A stretch of 28,296 nt of DNA, taken from IMG/VR virus record IMGVR_UViG_3300044614_000661, positions 1 through 28,296 of that record; one strand, 5' to 3'. Under the pieces are notes generated by a model, which did no database searches, had not been told where the DNA came from, and worked only from the letters and a program-made list of their open reading frames with translations. This document shows positions 12,530 to 24,107 of this stretch, one piece after another. Source of the DNA: a virus. A program made the position numbers and the translations under genes. Every line of letters begins with the position of its first letter. The first letter of the stretch is position 1.

Positions 12530-12698
12530 CCGTAAGCACGGGTTCTTTGTGCCCTGCCTGAACACAGAAGAAGTGCGGCAAGCAGGGCTCAAGGAAGCCC
12601 TGCGCTGCCGTGTCTTCGACGCCCAAGCCAGTACCCGCATCAGGAACGGCAGGCTTGGGGTGTGGTTCTATCGGGCTACCTCAAAGGGAGAACGATAG
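12489..12698 (+). CDS. hypothetical conserved phage protein, 69 aa
   Basis: The segment HGFFVPCLNTEEVRQAG, continuing to GRLGVWFYR, is a pattern I recognise from small phage proteins of unknown function that are compact and mixed alpha/beta. The listed ATG overlaps the primase-helicase gene by 41 bases and has no clear ribosome site; TTG at 12507 is an alternative, and the conserved part begins near residue 16. The gene ends inside the 3' end of the giant virion gene on the other strand (18-base overlap). An 8-bp stem lies in its coding region at 12582-12603. Confidence 0.6.
   Translation: MSSYSRLFPWRSVDRKHGFFVPCLNTEEVRQAGLKEALRCRVFDAQASTRIRNGRLGVWFYRATSKGER
12582..12603. terminator. inverted repeat near the convergent operon junction
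   Basis: GCAGGGCT and AGCCCTGC form an 8-bp perfect stem with a six-base loop, about 90 bases before the overlapping tails of the two opposing operons. There is no T-run on either strand. It is the only candidate structure for stopping convergent transcription, but it lies in coding sequence and may be incidental. Confidence 0.25.
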
Positions 12699-15600
12699 CT
12701 GCACGGTCTTGTCGGCTACGTCCCTGATCTCTTTGGCCACCGCGATCTTGAGCTTGCGGATTTGATCGAGCTGCTTGCGCTTTTCTTCTGGTGACAGGTC
12801 CGACGCCTGGATGGCCCGCTCAGCCGCAACCAACTGGTTCATGTTGGACTTGAACTCCTTGGCCAGCTCTGCTTGTAGGAACTCGTTACCCCGGCGCTGC
12901 AGCAGCGCCTTGGCCTCGGCCATGCGGCCTTCTTCCACAAGCTTCTCGTAGGTACGCTCGACCTTCTGCGCGTCGTTCATGCGCTCGTACATGCTGTTGG
13001 TGATACCGCCTGCGTCGTTGGGCTGGAACGCCCCGCCCACAATCGGGTACTCCGACAGCCGTTTGACGGCTTTCTCCGGGGACTCGCCGGGAGGCACGCC
13101 CACACTGAGCGCATGCAGGAACGCCAGCCCCACCGTGCCCGTGTAGCCGCGCACCAAGTTCTCAAAGACGATGGGTGATGTGCCCGTCACTTGGCCAATG
13201 AGCTTGGACATCTCGGCGGTGTTGTTGCGGAACTGCTCCTCGGGCAACAACCCCTTCTCCCGCGCAGACAGGATGTCGCGCCCTGTGTAGAACGACTTGC
13301 CCAACCCCGCCTCGATGGCGGGCTTCATGGCCTGCGGGATGCCGTAGCTGGAGCCGCCAGGGATAGTCTGCAGCACGATCTGCTTGAACGCCTTGACCGC
13401 CTGCTCGCCGCCATGATCGTCAAGCATAGAGTTGACCAACGCCTCGGGCAGCGCCTTGAAGATGTAGCCAATCTCAAACGGGATGGGCACACGGATCGGC
13501 TCATCAACGCCAGGGATGCGCACAAACCACTTGCCGTACTTCTGGTCAGCCTCAGCGTTCTTGTACGCCTCGTCGTCCTGCATCATGATCGCGTAGACGA
13601 TGGATGCCGCCGCCATCATGCCGCCTCGCTGCAACAGCTTCTGGCGAATCTTGAGCTTGTCGTTAAAAATCATCTGCCCCGTCATCGCCTTGTACAGCAC
13701 GTTCAAGCCCTGAATCTGGGCGTTGAAGAACGGGATCAGCGCGTTGGCAATGTGGATGCTGGGGCTGGCACCGCGCTTGTTGAAGTTCATGGACTCCAGC
13801 GCCAGGAGCGTGGCCTCCATCTCCGACATGCCCTGCTCGATGTAGCTGTTGTACTGGGCCCGGCGAGTCAGGGAGTCCGCCGACATTGCCACTGCCTCTG
13901 CTTTGGCCAGCAGGTTCATCCAGCCGGGCTTGCCGTCCGCAATACCACGCAGGATCATGGCCATGTCGTCTGCGCCGCCAGTAAACTGCTGGCCCCCGGT
14001 GATGCCCCGGCGCTCCAGGGTTTCTGCAGCCGGTTTGCCAATCTGCCTGAGCGCACCCAACACAGGCGTGAAGTTGGCACCAGCGGCTATGGGCGCGGCC
14101 AAGGAGTCGCGGAACAACTGGTTGGCAACGTACATCGGAGACAGCGTCACGCCCTTGCGCAGAAGCTGCGCTGGGATGGCCAGCGCCCGGAACAGGAACG
14201 GCATCTGTGTCGGGATGCCCTCCATGCCCTTTACCAGAATATCGGCTGGAACGCCCGTATCAAATTCCTTATTGCCGATTTTGACCTTCTCCGTGGCCAG
14301 CACGGCGTAGCGGTCCTCCCCGTCCACCTTGAACTGAACAACGTCCGGGCCCGCTGCTTTGCGCACCAGCTTGGCGGCGCTCAGGTCAAGCAGCTCAAAC
14401 ACCGCGTTCTTGGTGGCAAGGTTGCGCATGCCCATGTCGATGAGCATGTTGGTGTTCTGCACCGAGCTGGTCATGAAGTCCAAGATCGGTTGATCGCCGC
14501 CAACCAGCTCCTGCAAGTAGGGTTGCTCCTTGATTGAGCCGATCCTGATGGGGGTCTCGTTGCCGATCAACAACTCGGCAACGCCGTTGCGTTCCCGGTA
14601 GAACGGGATGTAATCGTTCTCAGCCAGCAGACGCGTAGCAGTCCGTTTAGACAGCGCCCCGGTCTCCACAACGAAATTGATCAGGTTGCGGTTGTACTCG
14701 TTGTACTCGCCGCGTGCCTTGTCGAATATAGCTTTGAGCTCGGGGTTGCCATTGACCACGCTAAGCGCACTGTCCAGATCAGCGCGGGTGACACCCTCGC
14801 CAAAGTTGAGTGACTCAAACCCTTTGTTGTCGGCACGAATCCCGGCCATGTATGCAGTGAACAGGCGGTTGACAGCTTCGCCGTTGCCCACCATCGGGCT
14901 GGCATCCCTGAGCGTCTCCACCACACCCTTGATGCTCGGCCCTTCCTGGGCCTCGATCACACGCTCGACCTTGCCGTCCTTGCGCGTCTTCTCCGCAATG
15001 ACAGGCGCTCCGGTGCCCACGGCTTGCGACACCATGTTCATACGTTGGTCGTACATGCGCAGGTAGTAGATCATCTGCGAGCCTTGCAGCTCTGGCATGT
15101 ACTTGCGCAGCCGCTCATACCCAGCGAAACGGTCCACCAGTTGGGTCTCAAGGCCGAGGAATCCGCCAGAGGCGGCACGCACACGCTCGTTGACGCCGCG
15201 CTGCTTGGTCACAAACGGGTCGAGCTTGCCAACCGCATCCTTCATTTCAGAGGAAGCAAACTCCGGCTTGCGCATGGACAGCCGCTCTGTTGTAGCCCTT
15301 GTCGGACGAGGCACAGTCAGCATCAGCGCGTCTGCTGCAGCCAGCGTAGCCTCCAGCATGGTGGACGGCGTATCGACCCCAATGGTCCTGAGTATGCTGT
15401 TCTTGAACGCTGTCCACATGTTTTTCAGCGTCCACTTCTTGCCCTGCATGTACCGTTGTACTGCGGGGTCAGACAGCGCATCCGACACAAACTCGCTCAA
15501 ACTCTCCTTGGCGTTGTCGTTAGGCGCAGCCGCATCGGCAGCGTAAGCCTCATACAACGCTTTGAGTTCCCGCTTGGCATTGAGCTGCGTTTTTGTAAGC

Positions 15601-18600
15601 ACATCTTCAGAAGTGCGCAGAACGCGTTCCGTGGCTGCGTGCACGCCCTCGTGCAGAATCGTCTGTTCGTTCCGCCCAGAATCGGCGTCAAGTGCAATGT
15701 GCGAGCCGTCAACGGCAGCCGCGCCAAAAACCGCACCGCCCTGGTCGTTGCGCAAATCTTTGACGACGTAAACGCTGGTGTTGCCAAGCAAACCTTTGAG
15801 CCGCTCAGCCACCGCCCTGTTCAGCGGAGTTTTAGATGTTGCAGCAATGTCTGCCATCAAAGACGCGGCGCTCTTTTTCGGATCGACCTCAACGCGTGGT
15901 GCGTCGTTAATCTCCGTGGCCACTTGATACAGCGTCTTGACTTCTGGAAGTTTTTCTTCCCGCCCAACAAGCGACCGCCCTTCAGCTTTGGCTGTTTGCT
16001 CGGTGCCACTAAATGTTTTGGTGACCGTCTCAACCTTGGCCGGGAACATCTCAGCGGTGCGCTCAGTTACATCGGGCATGATGAACAACATGCCGCCATT
16101 GAGCGAGTCGGCATTGGGTGCCAACTTGTCCACAAACATTTCTTTTGTGGTGTTGATGCAGCCGTAGCTGACGCGGTTGTCCGTAGCTTCTGGCGATTGC
16201 AGCCGCCCAAGCCGGTTTTCTTTCAGGTTGCCTAGATACACCGGATGTATGGCAACGTACCCCGTGCTGTCAAACGTCTCAAGCAAGTTGAACGAAGTGC
16301 CGTAGAAATCATCCTTAGAGACTTCCAACGTAAAGCGTCCGGCAGGGGTGATCTTGGGGCCGCCCTCAAGCGACGACTTACCCAACACATCGCCAGCGTC
16401 TTTGCCCATGAGCGCAGGGCCTTGCACCAACAAGCTGCCGTCGTTGTTGAAGAAGTGAATTGCGCCGTTGACCTTGTCCACAATACCAAAGCCCTTGCCA
16501 GAAGCCTTGGCGGTGGGGGCCATGTTCTCGTAGACCATCTGCGCCAGGGGGCTCATTTTTTCACGCGCAGCAGCAGGCACAGCGGCCTTGATGCTGACCG
16601 TTTCCGTGAGCGTCTGGCTATACGCCTTGGGCAGATCGAAGCTGAAGTTTGTGGCGCTGAACTGCGGGTTGAAAACCATCGCAGCCGCAAGCACACCCTC
16701 AGACATTTTCTTGACAATGTTGCGGATGCCCCGAGCAACCGCCTTACCGCCGTTGTTGACCATGTCAACAATATCTGCGCTCAGTTTGGCGATAAAAGTC
16801 TTGCTGCGTTTCTTTACGCCGTAAGCGGCCTCAAGTTTTGCAACGTCTTCCGCTGCCAGCGTGCCAACCTGCTGGCGCAAAACAGTTTCGTTTACAGGGC
16901 CGATAGGCGCGGGCTGCTCGCTTGTTTTTGCCAAGTCGTCGGCTGCCGTTTTTTCAAACGCTCCCGCAACAGCACTAGGGTAACTAACACCTAAGATGCC
17001 TCCGACAGTAGACTGCGTATCAACAATTTTTTGAGCTTCTGCCGCCAATGCGCCTTCGCGCTCTACATCTATACGCGCAGCGGCTAACTCGCGTTGCATT
17101 GCTTGTTTTTGCGCTTCCAAATCGGCAATTAAAACTACGTTGGGGCGTTGACTACGCCGCAACGCATCGAGCCGGATGTCAAGATCGGCAAGCTGCATCC
17201 TGATGTTGGCTTCAAGACGTTCTTTAGCCGCCAGTATTTGCTGCTGTTGTTGCAGCTCCTCTACAGCCAACTGCGTTGTGGTTTTTTCTGGTTGCTGGGC
17301 CGCACGTTCTTTAGCCGCAATATTGCCAGCAGCCTGCAGCTGCTTTGACGTTTCCGTCTTGGTTTTGCCACCCTGCACTATCTTAGAGCGCGTGCTGAGC
17401 TTGCGCTCCTCAGTCGTACCTGCCACACCAGTGCGGATGTTGCCTGCAGTGCGTGTGGGCCGAACAACGGGCCCCACTTTGCGAGCACCCAAACGCTCAC
17501 CTTCTTCTGCCGCAGCGGTTTCGGGCCTGCCAACGTCTGCCAGTGCTTTGCGAGTAATACCAAACTTGGCCGAACGCTGCGCCATAAGGCGTTGCAGTTC
17601 TTTAAAGGACTTCCGCAGCTCGCGCTTCCTTGAGTCAAGCGTGCTCGCTTTGATTCCCTTTTCTTTAAGCGAAACTTTTTGGTTCTCAATGTTTTGCTCA
17701 ACCTTGGCAATGCGCTTGTCAATGGCTTGCGTACGCGCCTTCTGCACTTCTGGGTCGTCAGAAAAAAGTGCTTCCAAATCAGCTTTGCGTTCTTCAAGCG
17801 TAGCCAAGTTGCTTTGTGCCGTGGCCTTGTCGCGCTCGTAAGTTGCAATGTCATTGGTGAAACGCTCAATACCTTTTGCAAAACGCTCACGCGCTTCGCG
17901 CAGCGGGGCCAGTGCAACCATTGCTGACTGCTGCTCCAGCTTAGCCTTAAAACTGCGCGGGCGCTTTTTGTTGGCGGCTTCAACCTGCGCAATTTCTCTA
18001 TCAATGCCCTTGAGCGCGCTCTCAGCTTCTGCAATTTGCTGTTGCACGTATGGAATGGCTTCGTCTGCCGCAGCAATCAGCGCCTCAAGTTCCCCACGCG
18101 TTTCTTCAGCCGTGCCAAGCTCTTCTATCAATGCGCGTCGTTTTTCAAACGAAACACGCTCACCAGCAAAACTGGATGGGTCACGACCAACGGCTTCAAG
18201 CAGACGTTGCCGCTGAGCATCCCGTTCCTGGGTTTGCGCAGCGGTCTCGGGTTTTTTAGCGCGTGTTTCCGTGCGTTGACGGTCAAACGCGAACAGCGCT
18301 TTTACCGGGGCGGCAGCTTCATTGAGTTCCGCTTCGGCTTCGTCGCGTTGCCGTATAAGCGCTTTTTCAGCGTCCGTTGATGCCCGCAGCACTTCTACTA
18401 CGTCTATCGTTTCGGCAATGCGGTTAGGGATTTCCGTGCGCGTAAGGCCCAGCTCTGCTTCCAGCTTTTCAATCTCGTCCAAACGCGCTTGTTGTTTGGC
18501 TGCCAACGCCTTGAGTATTTGCTGAGCCTCTTGTGCCTGTTGCCGTGCGTCAAGAATTTCGTCGCGGTTTTCCGCAGCTTCTATCTGGTTGTTACGCGCT

Positions 18601-21600
18601 TCTTCAAGCGCAAGCCCTGCGTTAATTAGTTTTTCACCCGTCGCATCTATTTTGGTTGCTTGTACTTGGATTTGCGCATCCAAAGTGGCTGCGGTTTTTA
18701 AGTACTGCTGGATAGCAACATCATCTTTGCGCGTGTCAAAAAATACGTCGTACAGTTCTTTGTGCGCTTTTGCAAGCTGCTCGTTAAAAGCGCCTTGTTG
18801 CCCGCTTTCTTTAAACTCTTGCATCGTGCGAGCAAGATTACGCGGGTCGTTGCCAAAATCTTCTTGAAAAGATTTATACAGTTTCTGGCGAGCGCGTTTT
18901 ATGCGCCGCTGCACTCTGTGTAGTTTCTCAATAGCCGAGACTTCACGGTTTGAAAACACTTGATTGTTGCGCAGCATTGCCGCCGTCAGTTTTTCTTCCG
19001 CTTCTACGGCAGCCTCAAACTGGTTTTGTGCCTTATCAAACTCCTTGAGCAGCGGCTCCAGTTCTTTGCGCAACGGCGCTTCTAGCTCGGCCATGCGCTT
19101 GCGCAACTCACGAAGAGTGCGTTGTGCTTCGTTAAGCGCACGCACCTCTTCTGCTGCATCAGCAGCAGACATTTCCTTTAGCGTTTTAAGTTCCCCGCGT
19201 TTTCCAACGTGCATGTCCCGCACACGCTTGTCAAGCGCAACAACTCGGGCTTTAAGTGCGTCAAGCTTTGACAGGTAAAGCGCTACACGAAACGCAAACG
19301 GTTTGACCCGCTGCTCAAGTCGATCTATTGTTGGTCGCGCCAAACCAATGGCAGACCGCATCTCTTGCAGCGCGTCTGATGCAAGATAGCGTTTGAGCTC
19401 CGCATAGCTGCCAAAAACGGGCGAAGTGACGGCCTCATACTCAGGCTCAAAACTAACTTGGCTAAATGAGCCCGCTGTAACGGGCACCGGCTTGGCCTCT
19501 GTCTCAGGAGCTTCTCGCCGCAATTTGCGGCCGGGGCCTAACGGCAGTCCAAGCTGCTCTTGGTTTGACAGCTTGGCCTGCTCAACCCTTTGCAGCGCAT
19601 CGCGTATTGCCTGCGTCTTGTCCGTTGGAACAGTAGCGGGGTCACGCGCCAAGTCGTAGAGCCAGCTCGACACATCCTGTCGAGTCTCGGGGCGCAGCAT
19701 CATGCGCACGTTGTCGCCAATGGCCTCCAGCAGGCGGCGCTGCTCTGGGCTGTGCGTCTGGGGGTCTTTCGACAACTCGCGGCTAAGCTGCGCCTCTGCA
19801 GTATTAACACTTACCTCGCTGGGCGTGAACGTGCGCGTATACCCAGGGGTCTGCGCGGCGGCAATTGCGTTTGTCCGTAACTCTTCCAGCCCCTCACGGA
19901 TAGATTGCGCGGCAGCAAACGGACTGCCAAAAGTCTGCCGACCCGGAACACGAGACTCAACCGTCGGATAGCCTGTGCCGGGCACTTCATCGGTACGAAA
20001 TTTGCCTGTGCGAGTTTGGGCGGGTACAAAAACGTCTTTGCCCTTTTGAGACAGGTCGCGGGTATCTCCAAACCGTTCGGTCAGTTCTCGCAGCAGCTCG
20101 TTAGCGTTGCGCGTGATGCCACGCGTCTCGTCTTCACTAAGCGGCTCTGTGCGCGATTGGCGGATGTCCATGAGCAAGCCAGCGATCAGCCGTTCTTTTG
20201 CGGCGTCCAACTGTTCTTGCTTTGCGGCCCCTCTGTTGAACCGATTGATCAGATCAACAATTTCAGAAAACGCGTCAGCACGGCTTTCCGAACCGACCTG
20301 TTGCAGCGCAACAGAGAGCGGCGTCTGGCCTGCGCCCATTGCTTGGCCTAACGACCTTTGCGCTTTGGCTTCCAGATCGTCAATCTGCTCTTCGCTGTAG
20401 CCTTGCGCACTTAACGCCTCACGCTGCTCGCCATTGAGGATAAATTTTTGCTGGCTGCGTGCAACGCGCATTGCGTCGGCTTCGTCTCTTTTATCTACTG
20501 CTCGCAAGCTATTGATGATGGACTCGGCTGCGTTGCGATCACCGGAAGCCCTAGCAATGCGCAAATCAGCAAGCAGCTCGCGGCGTGTTTTTAGTGCCGC
20601 ACCAAGCACCGTCTTTTGTGCGGACTGCCCAAACATCTCACCCTGCGCTGACACATCCGTAGGAAATCGCCGTCGTCCCATCTCGGCAATTTCAGCGGCG
20701 GTTTGGCCCTCGCGGCGATCAAAGTCGATGGCTTCCAAATCTTGCAGATACGCCTCGTAGTCCGGAGCCCTGCGCTTGCCTACAACTTTTTTGGGCAGTT
20801 GTCCTGCCAAGTCTTCCACACGCGGTGCCAACGATTGCTCGCCCCGCTGTTTTAACTGCAGCCTGATCGCGTCTATGACTGCGTTTCTTTCTGAACGCGA
20901 CAGCCCAGGCAGCGGCGTGTCAGGCGTAATCCGCGCCGCCATGCTCGGGTTTTGCATCAGATACGACACATACTCCGTGGTGGTAGGCGGCAAGTAGCTG
21001 CCAATCCGTGCGGCGTCTAGCGTTTGTGCAACATATTGATCGACGGCGGACGACGTAGCAGTGGAAACGGGTGCTGGCATGTTGGCCAGATAGGGCACTT
21101 CCTCTTGCGCTGGGCGCTCAGCTTCTGGTTGTGCCTGTGCCCCCGCTTGCGCAAGAAAATAGTCTTCGGGCGACATGCCCGCAATACGCGCTCTTTCTGC
21201 CTGCTGTGCCACCACGCCCTTGAGCGTGTTGTACTCTTTGGCGTCGTCCTCGAGCGTGTCATTTAGCGCATCAAGTTCTTTCTTTCGCTCTTTGTACGCT
21301 TGCCGAACATCGGGGGTGGCATCGTTGCCGGGCTTTTTCAATGCCGCACGGGCTTGAACAAAGGCATCTCTGCGGGTCTCATAGTCCGCAACAAACTGCT
21401 GTGCATAGGCGGGGTCGGCTTTGCGTGCTTCTTCAGCGGCGCGGGCGGCGTCTGCCTCCGCACGGGCCTGGGCAATCTCGTCGGCTGTGCCTGCTTTTGA
21501 GGCGCGTCGTCCCAGCGCCAAGTCCAACAACCCCTGCGCCATAGCGCCCACAGCACCACCGTATGCAGCAGACTCGCCTACCTGCTCGATGATGGCTTGC

Positions 21601-22301
21601 TCGGGTTTGTAGATGCCCTTGGCGATCAGGTTCTGGGCAATCTGTGCTGCGGCTTCCTGCGCCGCCTCCTCCCCGCCTGCTGCCGCAATGCGTTTGATCT
21701 GGGCAGCAGCCCCCGCTTTGACGGGATCGCTCAAACGTCCCAGAATGCGCAGGGGCGCAAACATCTCGGAGACGCCCACCACAGCGCCCAGCGCAGTGGC
21801 TGTGCCACGCTGATCAGCAGTGGCGCTGTCTTGCTCAGCCCTTGTCCGGGCTTCGCCCGCTCCAGCACCCGTACCGAGCGCGGCCATGCCGACGCGACCA
21901 GCGATACCCGCCGGGCCAAGTGCAAAAAATGGGATAGTAGAACCACCCGCCTCGCCAAGCTTACGGCCAACCGCTTCTTCGTACCCAGGGGCAGCAGCAA
22001 ACGGCGCTTTGGCAGCGCCAGCAATCTCCGCAATGCGCTTGCGGGCGCTCTCTTCCATGTCCTGGGGCAACAGCGAAGATGCGCCAACTGCCGCGCTTTC
22101 TACCAACCCTACAGCGCCGGGAGCCAACCCTTTGAAGAACTCACGGACATTGCCGCCAAACGTGGTCTCAGGCTTGGCCGCCGGTTTGGCACCGAAAGCT
22201 TCTGGATACATCCGCTGGGCCCGGAGCCAAGCGTCTTGCGGCGACTCCCCCGCCCTGATAGTTACAGAAGTCCCGTCGGGTAGAGGCAGATATTGCGCCA
22301 T
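12681..22301 (-). CDS. giant multidomain virion protein with L,D-transpeptidase and zincin motifs, 3206 aa
   Basis: One uninterrupted frame of 9.6 kb. The first 35 residues carry the PDGT...SPQDAW...YPEAFG motif common at the N-termini of phage virion proteins. Residues about 50-270 are Gly/Ala-rich with weakly hydrophobic stretches and a GEEAAQEAAAQIAQ segment typical of large phage polyproteins, possibly membrane-interacting. Residues about 990-1750 are coiled coil. Residues about 1935-2085 hold an L,D-transpeptidase motif (H2019, S2045-Y-G-C2048). H2217-E-x-x-H2221 with E2270 forms a zincin site. Residues about 2354-3206 resemble the LPD38-like C-terminal regions of phage polyproteins. Likely an internal virion protein ejected into the host, acting on the cell wall and the DNA channel. 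ATG 22301 has only a weak GGA site; a strong hairpin lies upstream. Last gene of the leftward operon. Confidence 0.85.
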   Translation of the reverse strand: MAQYLPLPDGTSVTIRAGESPQDAWLRAQRMYPEAFGAKPAAKPETTFGGNVREFFKGLAPGAVGLVESAAVGASSLLPQDMEESARKRIAEIAGAAKAPFAAAPGYEEAVGRKLGEAGGSTIPFFALGPAGIAGRVGMAALGTGAGAGEARTRAEQDSATADQRGTATALGAVVGVSEMFAPLRILGRLSDPVKAGAAAQIKRIAAAGGEEAAQEAAAQIAQNLIAKGIYKPEQAIIEQVGESAAYGGAVGAMAQGLLDLALGRRASKAGTADEIAQARAEADAARAAEEARKADPAYAQQFVADYETRRDAFVQARAALKKPGNDATPDVRQAYKERKKELDALNDTLEDDAKEYNTLKGVVAQQAERARIAGMSPEDYFLAQAGAQAQPEAERPAQEEVPYLANMPAPVSTATSSAVDQYVAQTLDAARIGSYLPPTTTEYVSYLMQNPSMAARITPDTPLPGLSRSERNAVIDAIRLQLKQRGEQSLAPRVEDLAGQLPKKVVGKRRAPDYEAYLQDLEAIDFDRREGQTAAEIAEMGRRRFPTDVSAQGEMFGQSAQKTVLGAALKTRRELLADLRIARASGDRNAAESIINSLRAVDKRDEADAMRVARSQQKFILNGEQREALSAQGYSEEQIDDLEAKAQRSLGQAMGAGQTPLSVALQQVGSESRADAFSEIVDLINRFNRGAAKQEQLDAAKERLIAGLLMDIRQSRTEPLSEDETRGITRNANELLRELTERFGDTRDLSQKGKDVFVPAQTRTGKFRTDEVPGTGYPTVESRVPGRQTFGSPFAAAQSIREGLEELRTNAIAAAQTPGYTRTFTPSEVSVNTAEAQLSRELSKDPQTHSPEQRRLLEAIGDNVRMMLRPETRQDVSSWLYDLARDPATVPTDKTQAIRDALQRVEQAKLSNQEQLGLPLGPGRKLRREAPETEAKPVPVTAGSFSQVSFEPEYEAVTSPVFGSYAELKRYLASDALQEMRSAIGLARPTIDRLEQRVKPFAFRVALYLSKLDALKARVVALDKRVRDMHVGKRGELKTLKEMSAADAAEEVRALNEAQRTLRELRKRMAELEAPLRKELEPLLKEFDKAQNQFEAAVEAEEKLTAAMLRNNQVFSNREVSAIEKLHRVQRRIKRARQKLYKSFQEDFGNDPRNLARTMQEFKESGQQGAFNEQLAKAHKELYDVFFDTRKDDVAIQQYLKTAATLDAQIQVQATKIDATGEKLINAGLALEEARNNQIEAAENRDEILDARQQAQEAQQILKALAAKQQARLDEIEKLEAELGLTRTEIPNRIAETIDVVEVLRASTDAEKALIRQRDEAEAELNEAAAPVKALFAFDRQRTETRAKKPETAAQTQERDAQRQRLLEAVGRDPSSFAGERVSFEKRRALIEELGTAEETRGELEALIAAADEAIPYVQQQIAEAESALKGIDREIAQVEAANKKRPRSFKAKLEQQSAMVALAPLREARERFAKGIERFTNDIATYERDKATAQSNLATLEERKADLEALFSDDPEVQKARTQAIDKRIAKVEQNIENQKVSLKEKGIKASTLDSRKRELRKSFKELQRLMAQRSAKFGITRKALADVGRPETAAAEEGERLGARKVGPVVRPTRTAGNIRTGVAGTTEERKLSTRSKIVQGGKTKTETSKQLQAAGNIAAKERAAQQPEKTTTQLAVEELQQQQQILAAKERLEANIRMQLADLDIRLDALRRSQRPNVVLIADLEAQKQAMQRELAAARIDVEREGALAAEAQKIVDTQSTVGGILGVSYPSAVAGAFEKTAADDLAKTSEQPAPIGPVNETVLRQQVGTLAAEDVAKLEAAYGVKKRSKTFIAKLSADIVDMVNNGGKAVARGIRNIVKKMSEGVLAAAMVFNPQFSATNFSFDLPKAYSQTLTETVSIKAAVPAAAREKMSPLAQMVYENMAPTAKASGKGFGIVDKVNGAIHFFNNDGSLLVQGPALMGKDAGDVLGKSSLEGGPKITPAGRFTLEVSKDDFYGTSFNLLETFDSTGYVAIHPVYLGNLKENRLGRLQSPEATDNRVSYGCINTTKEMFVDKLAPNADSLNGGMLFIMPDVTERTAEMFPAKVETVTKTFSGTEQTAKAEGRSLVGREEKLPEVKTLYQVATEINDAPRVEVDPKKSAASLMADIAATSKTPLNRAVAERLKGLLGNTSVYVVKDLRNDQGGAVFGAAAVDGSHIALDADSGRNEQTILHEGVHAATERVLRTSEDVLTKTQLNAKRELKALYEAYAADAAAPNDNAKESLSEFVSDALSDPAVQRYMQGKKWTLKNMWTAFKNSILRTIGVDTPSTMLEATLAAADALMLTVPRPTRATTERLSMRKPEFASSEMKDAVGKLDPFVTKQRGVNERVRAASGGFLGLETQLVDRFAGYERLRKYMPELQGSQMIYYLRMYDQRMNMVSQAVGTGAPVIAEKTRKDGKVERVIEAQEGPSIKGVVETLRDASPMVGNGEAVNRLFTAYMAGIRADNKGFESLNFGEGVTRADLDSALSVVNGNPELKAIFDKARGEYNEYNRNLINFVVETGALSKRTATRLLAENDYIPFYRERNGVAELLIGNETPIRIGSIKEQPYLQELVGGDQPILDFMTSSVQNTNMLIDMGMRNLATKNAVFELLDLSAAKLVRKAAGPDVVQFKVDGEDRYAVLATEKVKIGNKEFDTGVPADILVKGMEGIPTQMPFLFRALAIPAQLLRKGVTLSPMYVANQLFRDSLAAPIAAGANFTPVLGALRQIGKPAAETLERRGITGGQQFTGGADDMAMILRGIADGKPGWMNLLAKAEAVAMSADSLTRRAQYNSYIEQGMSEMEATLLALESMNFNKRGASPSIHIANALIPFFNAQIQGLNVLYKAMTGQMIFNDKLKIRQKLLQRGGMMAAASIVYAIMMQDDEAYKNAEADQKYGKWFVRIPGVDEPIRVPIPFEIGYIFKALPEALVNSMLDDHGGEQAVKAFKQIVLQTIPGGSSYGIPQAMKPAIEAGLGKSFYTGRDILSAREKGLLPEEQFRNNTAEMSKLIGQVTGTSPIVFENLVRGYTGTVGLAFLHALSVGVPPGESPEKAVKRLSEYPIVGGAFQPNDAGGITNSMYERMNDAQKVERTYEKLVEEGRMAEAKALLQRRGNEFLQAELAKEFKSNMNQLVAAERAIQASDLSPEEKRKQLDQIRKLKIAVAKEIRDVADKTVQLSFSL
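12684..15242 (-). other. C-terminal LPD38-like region of the giant protein
   Basis: Residues about 2354-3206. Segments such as QLLRKGVTLSPMYVANQLFR and FNKRGASPSIHIANALIPFF, and helical spans between them, match the pattern of the large polyvalent protein-associated domain found at the ends of phage giant proteins. The biochemical role of that domain is not established; a scaffold or translocation function in ejection is inferred. Confidence 0.6.
15312..15854 (-). other. zincin (HExxH) domain of the giant protein
   Basis: Residues about 2150-2330. ILH2217EGVH2221AATE is a classical metalloprotease helix, and ESLSE2270FVSDAL downstream supplies a fitting third zinc ligand, as in other peptidase-like domains inside phage polyproteins. 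It may cleave the giant protein itself, or a host envelope or defence protein. Confidence 0.7.
16047..16499 (-). other. L,D-transpeptidase (YkuD-like) domain of the giant protein
   Basis: Residues about 1935-2085. The domain opens with beta-like strands (FGIVDKVNGAIHFF, then PALMGKDAGD and GGPKITPAGRFTLEV, the KxTPxGxF element of the family) and closes with AIH2019P and RVS2045YGC2048IN. The nucleophilic Cys and the upstream His are both present. Tyr replaces the usual His in the SHGC signature, a variant I recall from proteobacterial L,D-transpeptidases. Confidence 0.8.
17052..19334 (-). other. central coiled-coil region of the giant protein
   Basis: Residues about 990-1750 are dominated by Glu/Lys/Arg/Ala/Leu heptads (for example LEERKADLEAL and AKVEQNIENQKV) interrupted by short Pro/Gly/Thr-rich linkers around residues 1590-1640. 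This predicts a long rod or several helical bundles. The DNA here is visibly less GC-rich than the 3' third of the gene. Confidence 0.7.
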
Positions 22302-22333
22302 GATGCATCCAAATTGTGCGGCTACGAGATTTT

Positions 22334-22361
22334 CGCCTGTGCAGGCCGATCTGCACAGGCG
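22334..22361. promoter_or_regulatory. perfect 11-bp hairpin upstream of the giant gene
   Basis: CGCCTGTGCAG and CTGCACAGGCG flank a six-base loop inside the 78-base gap before the giant gene. On the transcribed (-) strand it is preceded by ATTTT and followed by AAAAT, which can extend the stem across a bulge, but no U-tract follows, so it is not a canonical terminator. Possible roles are mRNA 5'-end protection, processing, or control of giant-protein synthesis. Confidence 0.6.
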
Positions 22362-22379
22362 TCGGGAAAATTCTACGCT

Positions 22380-24107
22380 TTATGAACGCGCTCCGCCAGG
22401 GCCCGGCGCACTCTGCGCAGCAGGCGTCGTCATAACCTGAATCCGTTGCCTAATGTACGCAGCCAGTGCGGGGTCCGTCTGCTCAAGAATCTTCAGCTTC
22501 ATGGGGTTCTTGGCATAGTCTGCCACAAGAGCGGCTTCGTTTTTGGTTCCCACTTGCGAGCGCAGTTCTGCCAACCGCGCAGCCGCGTCGGCTTGCTTTG
22601 CCGCTGTTTCCATCGTGGCAATCCGCTCTTGTGTTGATAGCTGTGCAGCGGTGCGCAGGCCCGAGCTCTCCTGCTCCCTGGCTGAGCGTATATTGGCCGC
22701 TTCAATCTGCGCGAGGCCAAGTCTTTCAGCAGACCCTGCCGCTGCTTTATCCGTAAGCATTTTTATGCCTGCATTTGTAAGCGCGGTGGCTTCGTTCGTT
22801 TGCCGCCCAAATTCCGTGCGCCATGCGTTTATTGAGTCGCGCTTGCCGTCTAGAATGATCTTGTTTCCATCGCGGCGCAAAGCACTGCGCTGTTGATTGT
22901 CAAGAATCCCCTCGCTGCGCCGCGCCGTCTCGATGCGCTCAAGGCCGTCTTCAATGCGCTCACGGGCAGTCTGCAGCTTCTCAAGTCCTTCGGTGTATCC
23001 GCGCAAACCAACCTGCGCCCCAGCGCCGATGTTTTGCAACGCGGAACGGGACGAGCCGCTCATGATGGCTAAGCCTGCTTGTATCGCCGCCAGTGGGCCA
23101 AGGTCTTTCTCTTGCTTGACAAGCTTTTCTTCCCGGGCCTTAAGCCGCGCCTCTTGCTTTTCGCCAAGCAGCCCCCGCTCTTTAACTTCGCGTGCATGTG
23201 CAGCCTGCTCTTGGGCATTTTGGAACGCGGCCAGATTGATAAGCTCTTGTTGCTGCTCCGCCTGCGGATCAACGACGTTCTCAGGCTTGACTCTGTTGTC
23301 GGCGTAGAGTTTTTGAATTTGCTCAAGCGTTGGGAATGTCGCTTGGCTGGGCTCAAAGTTGACGGGTACTGCCGTAACCGGCTGCATCAACCTATCAATC
23401 AAAGGGTCTCGCACAGCGGCGGGTGCCGGAGCGGGTGCAGGAGCACGCGCAGGGGCGGGTGCAGGAGCACGCGCAGGGGCGGGTGCAGGAGCACGCGCAG
23501 GGGCGGGTGCAGGAGCGGGTGCAGGGGCGGGTGCAGGAGCGGGATCAGCAGCCATTGGCCCCGCAGCAGTAGGCGCACCAAACGCGGCGCGATTAGCTCC
23601 CGAGGCGGACATTTCTGTTTGATACGTTTGCTCGGCGGACCGTAGCGCAGCCTGCGCAGTTGCCAATTCTTGCTGCGCCGCCTGAAATCCTGCAGGGTCT
23701 TGTTGCCGTTGCCGCAACCCGTAGGTATACAACTTCTGTTGCGCAGCTTGTGCGCGGGCGCGGGCGGCATCGAGCAAACCCCCACTTTGATACCGCTCAA
23801 CCGGGCCGCCCTCGTCAAACGCGACGATGCCGCCGTCGGCAAAGTTCATGTCACCTGCGGGGAGTTGTGCGATGCCGATGTCCTCGGGCATGGGGGCGGC
23901 CATGCTTTGGATCGCTTGGTCCACAACTTTGGGCTGCTCAGGGGCGTTGGCCTGAGCAGCGATCTTCATTTTTTCCCGGCGTTTGGCCTCCGACAAGGCC
24001 AGCGCCATGATGTAGGGGTTGTCCTTGTTTGCCTTTGCGTACTCCTGCAACGCCGTGTCCGGCTGCAGCCGACGAAGCATTGAAGTGATTTGATTGACGT
24101 TGAGCAT
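22380..24107 (-). CDS. predicted internal virion protein with Pro-Ala hinge, 575 aa
   Basis: The N-terminal 110 residues are helical and end in the glycine motif FADGGIVAFDEGGP (residues 89-102), which I associate with virion proteins of plankton phages. A helical part follows, then a Pro-Ala hinge (residues about 189-230, repeated APAPARAP) encoded by a 24-bp DNA repeat. The C-terminal half is helical or coiled-coil, with the recognisable LQNIGAGAQVGLRGYTEGLE and ArgGlu-rich repeats. The likely role is a structural or ejection protein acting with the giant protein encoded next. GGGGGTCTGAG precedes the ATG. The stop lies 78 bases before the giant gene. No enzymatic motif seen. Confidence 0.7.
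   Translation of the reverse strand: MLNVNQITSMLRRLQPDTALQEYAKANKDNPYIMALALSEAKRREKMKIAAQANAPEQPKVVDQAIQSMAAPMPEDIGIAQLPAGDMNFADGGIVAFDEGGPVERYQSGGLLDAARARAQAAQQKLYTYGLRQRQQDPAGFQAAQQELATAQAALRSAEQTYQTEMSASGANRAAFGAPTAAGPMAADPAPAPAPAPAPAPAPARAPAPAPARAPAPAPARAPAPAPAPAAVRDPLIDRLMQPVTAVPVNFEPSQATFPTLEQIQKLYADNRVKPENVVDPQAEQQQELINLAAFQNAQEQAAHAREVKERGLLGEKQEARLKAREEKLVKQEKDLGPLAAIQAGLAIMSGSSRSALQNIGAGAQVGLRGYTEGLEKLQTARERIEDGLERIETARRSEGILDNQQRSALRRDGNKIILDGKRDSINAWRTEFGRQTNEATALTNAGIKMLTDKAAAGSAERLGLAQIEAANIRSAREQESSGLRTAAQLSTQERIATMETAAKQADAAARLAELRSQVGTKNEAALVADYAKNPMKLKILEQTDPALAAYIRQRIQVMTTPAAQSAPGPGGARS
23419..23543. repeat. 24-bp tandem repeat encoding a Pro-Ala hinge
   Basis: Three perfect copies of a 24-base unit occupy 23431-23454, 23455-23478 and 23479-23502, with degenerate partial copies on both sides. 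The unit is a multiple of three and encodes APAPARAP in the overlapping protein, so copy-number change would lengthen or shorten the hinge without a frameshift. Confidence 0.9.

Follow-up and report, generated by a model that had tools for sequence, protein, structure and literature searches.

The question raised by this locus is what role a perfect hairpin plays in the short leader of a giant phage gene. The window (the whole stretch of DNA analysed, 28,296 bases) is virus record IMGVR_UViG_3300044614_000661, for which there is no completeness estimate. Its replication genes run rightward and encode polymerase A, an SNF2-type helicase, a PD-(D/E)XK nuclease and a primase/helicase-like protein, and its virion genes run leftward. 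The product of the giant gene matches Pfam LPD38 (2.2e-29, residues 2910-3088) and, weakly, a PHROG of virion RNA polymerase (residues 145-377). Its C-terminal third matches giant proteins of many phages in tblastn, the relatives including the 'large polyvalent protein' of Planktothrix phage Pag-Yong1. Between the stop codon of the preceding gene and the ATG of the giant gene there is a gap of 78 nt on the - strand. The features discussed below are as follows.

12681-22301, - strand: giant gene encoding a large polyvalent / ejection-type protein of 3206 aa
22299-22301, - strand: ATG start codon of the giant gene
22308-22310, - strand: weak Shine-Dalgarno sequence GGA, duplex energy -3.1 kcal/mol
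22312-22317, - strand: conserved ACAATT box, one base after GCCG, between stem 2 and the Shine-Dalgarno sequence
22319-22322, - strand: GCCG, 3' strand of stem 2 (S2), its 3' end 17 nt from the ATG; compensated in other lineages
22323-22333, - strand: loop 3 of the pseudoknot, AAAATCTCGTA, 11 nt
22334-22344, - strand: 3' arm of stem 1, CTGCACAGGCG, perfect inverted repeat
22345-22350, - strand: apical loop ATCGGC, its CGGC (22345-22348) supplying the 5' strand of stem 2
22351-22361, - strand: 5' arm of stem 1 (S1), CGCCTGTGCAG, perfect inverted repeat with covariation
22370-22375, - strand: -10-like box TAGAAT, separated from the stem by 8 nt; RNA predicted to start at about 22362-22364
22380-24107, - strand: upstream gene of the virion operon, 575 aa

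The 575-aa product has no family match; it contains an Ala-Pro-(Arg) repeat of about 40 residues (23421-23546, - strand). It is worth adding some observations on the giant protein and its downstream end. The first 40 residues of the giant proteins, MxQxLPLPDGxxVxIREGETP...YPEAF, are conserved (22176-22301, - strand; alignment A1) and precede differing sequence (L122, L124, L125 and L128-L130 against the rest); they are perhaps a virion-targeting domain that moves together with the leader. The motif SYGCINTT (16146-16163, - strand), in a stretch spanned by phrog_38499, presumably resembles an L,D-transpeptidase (YkuD) active site. Beyond the 3' end of the giant gene, between it and the convergent primase-like gene, lies an 8-bp inverted repeat, CCCAAGCC/GGCTTGGG (12622-12659), which a covariance model matches only weakly (E 0.79) and which, judged by eye, is perhaps a bidirectional transcription end.

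The hairpin and its covariation

The first-pass annotation described a perfect 11-bp hairpin at 22334-22361, in the leader gap upstream of the longest gene, and this description is exact: the hairpin has 11 pairs and a 6-nt loop at precisely these coordinates, and it lies within the 78-nt gap. The window has no other perfect stem that reaches 11 bp and encloses a loop of 3-12 nt, and 40 dinucleotide shuffles of the window produced one such stem in total. The hairpin was also said to lack a terminator U-tract, and indeed none follows the stem on either strand. A suggested extension of the stem by a flanking ATTTT/AAAAT pair fared less well. It is present in the window and in the minimum free energy fold, but the leaders of relatives, compared by eye, do not keep it, and because its 5' half overlaps the -10-like box it is probably absent from the transcript.

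Relatives were collected from IMG/VR using as queries the ejection-protein gene, the N-terminus of the giant protein and two alignments of N-termini, which gave loci L003-L050, L051-L130, L185-L264 and L303-L353. Leaders were cut by script upstream of the homologous ATG; there were 93 distinct leaders at first, and 109 distinct 80-nt leaders after enlargement.

Covariation in relatives had been put forward as a check on the hairpin, and stem 1 does covary strongly, both in an alignment of 35 leaders and in 19 pairs of sister sequences. The alignment (A3), made with MAFFT from sequence and fitted to no structure, holds 35 sequences from 49 candidates and omits the AAAGU and GACCC types of stem 2 (L067, L083, L092, L206, L209 and L218). 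Double-sided changes occur in 10 of its 11 pairs, and the covariation score is 0.501, whereas shuffles score 0.194 and slid registers 0.10-0.21. The sister-pair comparison, in which each pair contributes nine base pairs and every sequence is used at most once in order to lessen the effect of relatedness, gave 17 compensatory double changes, 10 pair-preserving single changes and 9 breaks; slid registers gave 0-1 double changes and 18-21 breaks. The arm sequences themselves differ almost wholly between lineages. RNA folding was also proposed as a check. When whole leaders are folded without pseudoknots, the result is not clearly better than for shuffles, with z values of -2.2 for the window, -0.95 for L059, -1.21 for L124 and +0.54 for L083.

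A second stem between loop and downstream strand

The loop sequence CGGC pairs with GCCG 11 nt downstream. This is the pairing of the main class of leaders, in which GCCG stands just ahead of ACAATT. Taken alone, the 4-bp stem 2 of the window is within chance (p = 0.13). Across the relatives, a strict parse was applied that demands at least 7 pairs for stem 1 and, for stem 2, at least 4 Watson-Crick pairs and an end 11-20 nt away from the ATG. Among the 109 distinct leaders 58 pass, compared with 15 among 1090 dinucleotide shuffles. Once 24 gapless or unclassed leaders are set aside the count is 57 of 85, and among those 24 it is a single one, L264, a gapless leader whose match we take to be chance.

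Stem 2 is compensated in several ways. GACC/GGUC is found in 7 leaders, with extended forms in L083, L092, L218 and L344; other types are AAAGU/ACUUU (3 leaders), GUCGGC/GCCGAC (2), and UCGGC/GCCGA, CCGGU/ACCGG and UCGGUC/GACCGA (1 each). When loops and partners were swapped among nine classes, in a test that left out 15 of the 69 leaders, the observed complementarity was reached in 2 of 20000 permutations. For five variant classes of stem 2 the comparisons with shuffles combine to p = 1e-4 (Fisher), the single classes being weak (0.005 to 0.25). L019, L247 and L006 were considered as further variants and are not counted as pseudoknots; they have too short a loop 3 or an alternative hairpin.

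The geometry was measured in a set of 48 leaders (18 names omitted). Loop 1 is 1-2 nt long in 42 of them, loop 2 is 0 nt in 36 and loop 3 ranges from 4 to 16 nt; stem 1 has about 11 pairs and stem 2 has 4-7. The stem pairs in this set comprise 345 Watson-Crick, 44 G-U and 43 other. Given that the pairing of the loop with the downstream strand is compensated across lineages, the element is best described as an H-type pseudoknot. Comparison thus finds both a loop paired with a flanking strand and compensatory changes in that pairing, and the conclusion that the hairpin is stem 1 of a conserved H-type pseudoknot, with coaxial geometry, is well supported by the aligned leaders.

The element appears to be specific to its place. 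A covariance model gave a strong match in 44 of 49 phage records, a single one in each and at the giant polyvalent/ejection gene; these records were chosen as carriers of the leader, so that the count speaks for copy number and place and not for prevalence, and the E-values of the model are rough. No extra strong copy was found by the model elsewhere in the 49 records, G024 having only an antisense echo beside its strong match, and the records lacking a strong match (G009, G018, G020, G038 and G039) carry the AAAGU or GACCC types of stem 2. Three DNA-pattern scans of IMG/VR gave 30 of 54, 7 of 8 and 7 of 22 matches at the giant gene. Among the other 40 matches no comparable stem with pseudoknot was seen except an 8-pair stem (L161) and a 7-pair stem (L150), both of which we read as G+C-rich chance and reject as further copies.

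No Rfam 15 family reaches its gathering threshold in the whole window or at the loci of 15 relatives, and a search of 22200-22480 with E up to 10 gave one irrelevant match, L31-Firmicutes, outside the element. Two scans of genome contigs for a host yielded no relative, and a literature search found no description of such a pseudoknot in the leader of a giant gene. Few pseudoknots have been documented in the leaders of phage mRNAs; a 2010 review describes that of T4 gene 32 as perhaps the sole viral example in translational autoregulation (PMC3014915). What is seen here is a widespread, strongly covarying pseudoknot linked to the giant ejected proteins of phages.

Promoter-like and translation signals

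Among 48 lineage representatives, chosen after 9 of 69 leaders were left out, 39 have a box with at least 5 of 6 matches to TATAAT within the 20 nt that precede the stem. The same threshold is reached in 507 of 4800 shuffles (10.6%) and in 7 of 465 upstream coding 20-mers (1.5%). In 55 of 60 leaders, 3-10 nt separate the -10 box from the start of the stem. A perfect TTGACA stands 18 nt upstream in L125, L129, L253 and L256, and TTGACA was seen by eye in L340-L343 and L351; the window's own -35 is weak (CTGGCG, 3 of 6). Since the -10-like box lies directly upstream, the transcript probably begins with the pseudoknot, the predicted RNA starting at the base of the stem.

On the other side of the pseudoknot, ACAATT is exact in 48 of 69 leaders, compared with 0.8% of shuffles, and it is kept where stem 2 has changed (L121, L263 and L048); the leaders are related, and neither these box counts nor those for the Shine-Dalgarno sequence are independent. 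The first-pass annotation had pointed to a weak ribosome site downstream of the hairpin, and we agree: the only such sequence is GGA, at -3.1 kcal/mol. None of 44 pseudoknot leaders has a Shine-Dalgarno duplex of -5 kcal/mol or lower, as against 56% of 117 ATG-started upstream ORFs at the same loci (Mann-Whitney p = 1.8e-7, the rows being related). The gapless relatives have a stronger Shine-Dalgarno sequence (n = 22, median -6.15, p = 0.0017). No significant difference was found between pseudoknot leaders and 15 leaders with a hairpin only (p = 0.14).

The distance from the end of stem 2 to the AUG is 16-18 nt in 41 of 48 leaders, and its standard deviation is 1.45, as against 2.76 for the length of loop 3. 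The comparison of leaders therefore shows that this spacing, the ACAAUU box and a weak or absent Shine-Dalgarno sequence are conserved together. The 30S footprint extends about 20 nt upstream of the AUG, and stem 2 would therefore abut a bound subunit. The three conserved features (spacing to the AUG, ACA box and weak Shine-Dalgarno sequence) together point to a role in translation initiation. The earlier suggestion of an RNA element specific to this junction, and not a terminator, is supported in view of the covariation, the single strong copy per record and the presence of a U-tract in only 8 of 47 relatives; the pseudoknot, the promoter-like box and ACAATT had been overlooked, and the processing or stabilising role that was suggested is now less favoured than one in translation.

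Possible roles of the leader

The function that we tentatively propose, at a little under an even chance and by analogy with known systems, is that the 5' pseudoknot of a separate giant-gene transcript acts with ACAAUU as a leader on which the 30S subunit docks, probably with the help of ribosomal protein S1. The giant-gene RNA would begin at the foot of the stem, from a host promoter of the sigma-70 type immediately upstream; the coaxial pseudoknot, together with the adjacent single-stranded ACAAUU, would then dock the 30S subunit, probably through S1, and this docking would compensate for the weak Shine-Dalgarno sequence. Such a leader would give the 9.6-kb gene an initiation signal and a dose of its own, separate from the upstream virion operon. 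Leaders that have a gap, a -10 box and a simple hairpin without a pseudoknot do exist (for example L225, L229, L241, L243 and L249), and hence the giant gene can be expressed without the pseudoknot.

The closest model for docking is the tisB mRNA, in which a pseudoknot at the 5' end is required for S1 and 30S binding, S1 being a protein that binds H-type pseudoknots (PMC7708055). The E. coli tisB +42 mRNA and the giant-gene leaders both have an H-type leader pseudoknot at the 5' end (predicted for the giant gene) beside a single-stranded stretch, and an initiation signal that is poor alone. Their dimensions differ: tisB has S1 9, S2 5, L1 0, L2 2 and L3 3, whereas the giant-gene leaders have S1 about 11, S2 4-7, L1 1-2, L2 0 and L3 4-16. 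The tisB ribosome-binding site is sequestered and about 100 nt away, an arrangement that the giant-gene leader does not share, since stem 2 ends 17 nt from the AUG and the Shine-Dalgarno sequence is weak. In addition, tisB encodes a cellular toxin and has an antisense RNA, whereas the giant gene belongs to a phage and its S1 binding is putative. As to the box, another report states that ACA upstream of a Shine-Dalgarno sequence enhances translation and occurs in S1-selected pseudoknots (PMC3879156). By sequence, the giant-gene leader likewise has ACA directly upstream of its Shine-Dalgarno sequence, conserved across relatives as in yifK and dppA; it differs from these in following a pseudoknot and in being fixed as ACAAUU, and its activity as an enhancer is putative.

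It is somewhat doubtful, although worth stating, that promoter, 5' pseudoknot and ACAAUU form a phage-wide module that would replace the Shine-Dalgarno sequence, recruit 30S and S1 to the giant polyvalent ejection gene alone, and move with its conserved first 40 codons between otherwise differing giant proteins. The leader offers a clean test case for the question whether natural mRNAs use S1-binding pseudoknots and ACA boxes in place of a Shine-Dalgarno sequence.

The stem might instead serve the stability of the RNA, the pseudoknotted 5'-terminal stem shielding the very long giant-gene mRNA from decay by RppH and RNase E. The 5'-terminal stem-loops of ompA and papA protect their mRNAs from 5'-end-dependent decay, and a stem at or near the 5' end is likewise predicted for the giant gene; to our knowledge, no pseudoknot has been described in them. 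Few nucleotides would be unpaired at the 5' end, to judge from the distance of 3-10 nt between box and stem, other lineages retain the -10 box and a plain hairpin without a pseudoknot, and the element sits on the longest gene. Protection of the 5' end explains neither the compensation of stem 2 nor the 16-18 nt from stem 2 to the AUG, kept while loop 3 varies, nor ACAATT with the weak Shine-Dalgarno sequence, and we consider it unlikely as the function of the leader.

Less likely again is a translational operator, at which a phage protein, perhaps the giant protein or another virion protein, would bind the pseudoknot and repress initiation. A 5' H-type pseudoknot upstream of the ribosome-binding site of one gene, in one copy per record, would suit such a role, for which the 2010 review offers the precedent of gene 32 in T4, T2 and RB69 (PMC3014915). 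Like the giant-gene leader, this is a phage mRNA with a 5' H-type pseudoknot of coaxial stems upstream of one specific gene. In gene 32 about 67 nt, including A+U-rich repeats, separate the pseudoknot from the AUG, whereas the giant-gene leader has only the 17 nt CACAATTTGGATGCATC, with no UUAA(A) repeats between pseudoknot and ribosome-binding site; gene 32 is autoregulated by a single-strand-binding protein (gp32), and sequence, gene and phage group all differ. Moreover, unlike a protein site, the pseudoknot has little fixed sequence outside its paired positions and the loop CGGC (itself variable), and the analysis found no candidate binder.

One could also read the 11-bp palindrome as DNA, as the operator of a dimeric repressor immediately after the -10 box. 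Spanning about +1 to +28 of the predicted promoter, it lies where repressors frequently bind, and operator half-sites, too, can co-change. Such an operator is nevertheless highly improbable, because the palindrome's centre covaries with a second strand lying 4-16 nt farther downstream, G-U pairs are frequent inside the stem, and the arms are almost completely different between lineages. Termination or attenuation of transcription at the border of virion operon and giant gene is, if anything, slightly more improbable: the stem is G+C-rich and at least 5 T occur in the 8 nt after it in 8 of 47 distinct relatives (e.g. L245 and L222), but the U-tract is missing in the window and in the other 39, on which ground an intrinsic terminator is rejected, and spacing and stem 2 would be unexplained. 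A hairpin promoter of the N4 virion-RNA-polymerase type, prompted by the weak PHROG match, was also considered and set aside, as the loop-to-downstream covariation and the -10 box favour an RNA element.

Some lineages have a plain 5' hairpin or no leader before the giant gene, and among distant cultured relatives those of Vibrio, Achromobacter and Pelagibacter have almost no gap there. In L225, L229, L241, L243, L249, L228, L231 and L259 there is a -10 box and a 5' hairpin with no clear pseudoknot, several of them with a stronger Shine-Dalgarno sequence (TAAGGA). In L055, L057, L119, L222, L245 and L042 a T run follows the stem in loop 3, and stem 1 in these lineages might also be a weak terminator of the upstream operon. 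A different phage gene (MQLDFLSYTE...), found by pattern at L284 450-486, L288 11047-11083 and L298 3009-3045, has a leader hairpin GTCGGCTAGGA/TCCTAGCCGAC, without a pseudoknot, followed by ACAATT just before the ATG. Finally, the giant-gene leader of the distantly related cultured Escherichia phages PTXU04 and Pondi is 41 nt long and contains an 8-bp hairpin whose 3' arm includes the Shine-Dalgarno-like GGGGGAG (L266 7833-7855 and L299 1848-1870, respectively); this is possibly a switch that sequesters the Shine-Dalgarno sequence, in a tractable phage.
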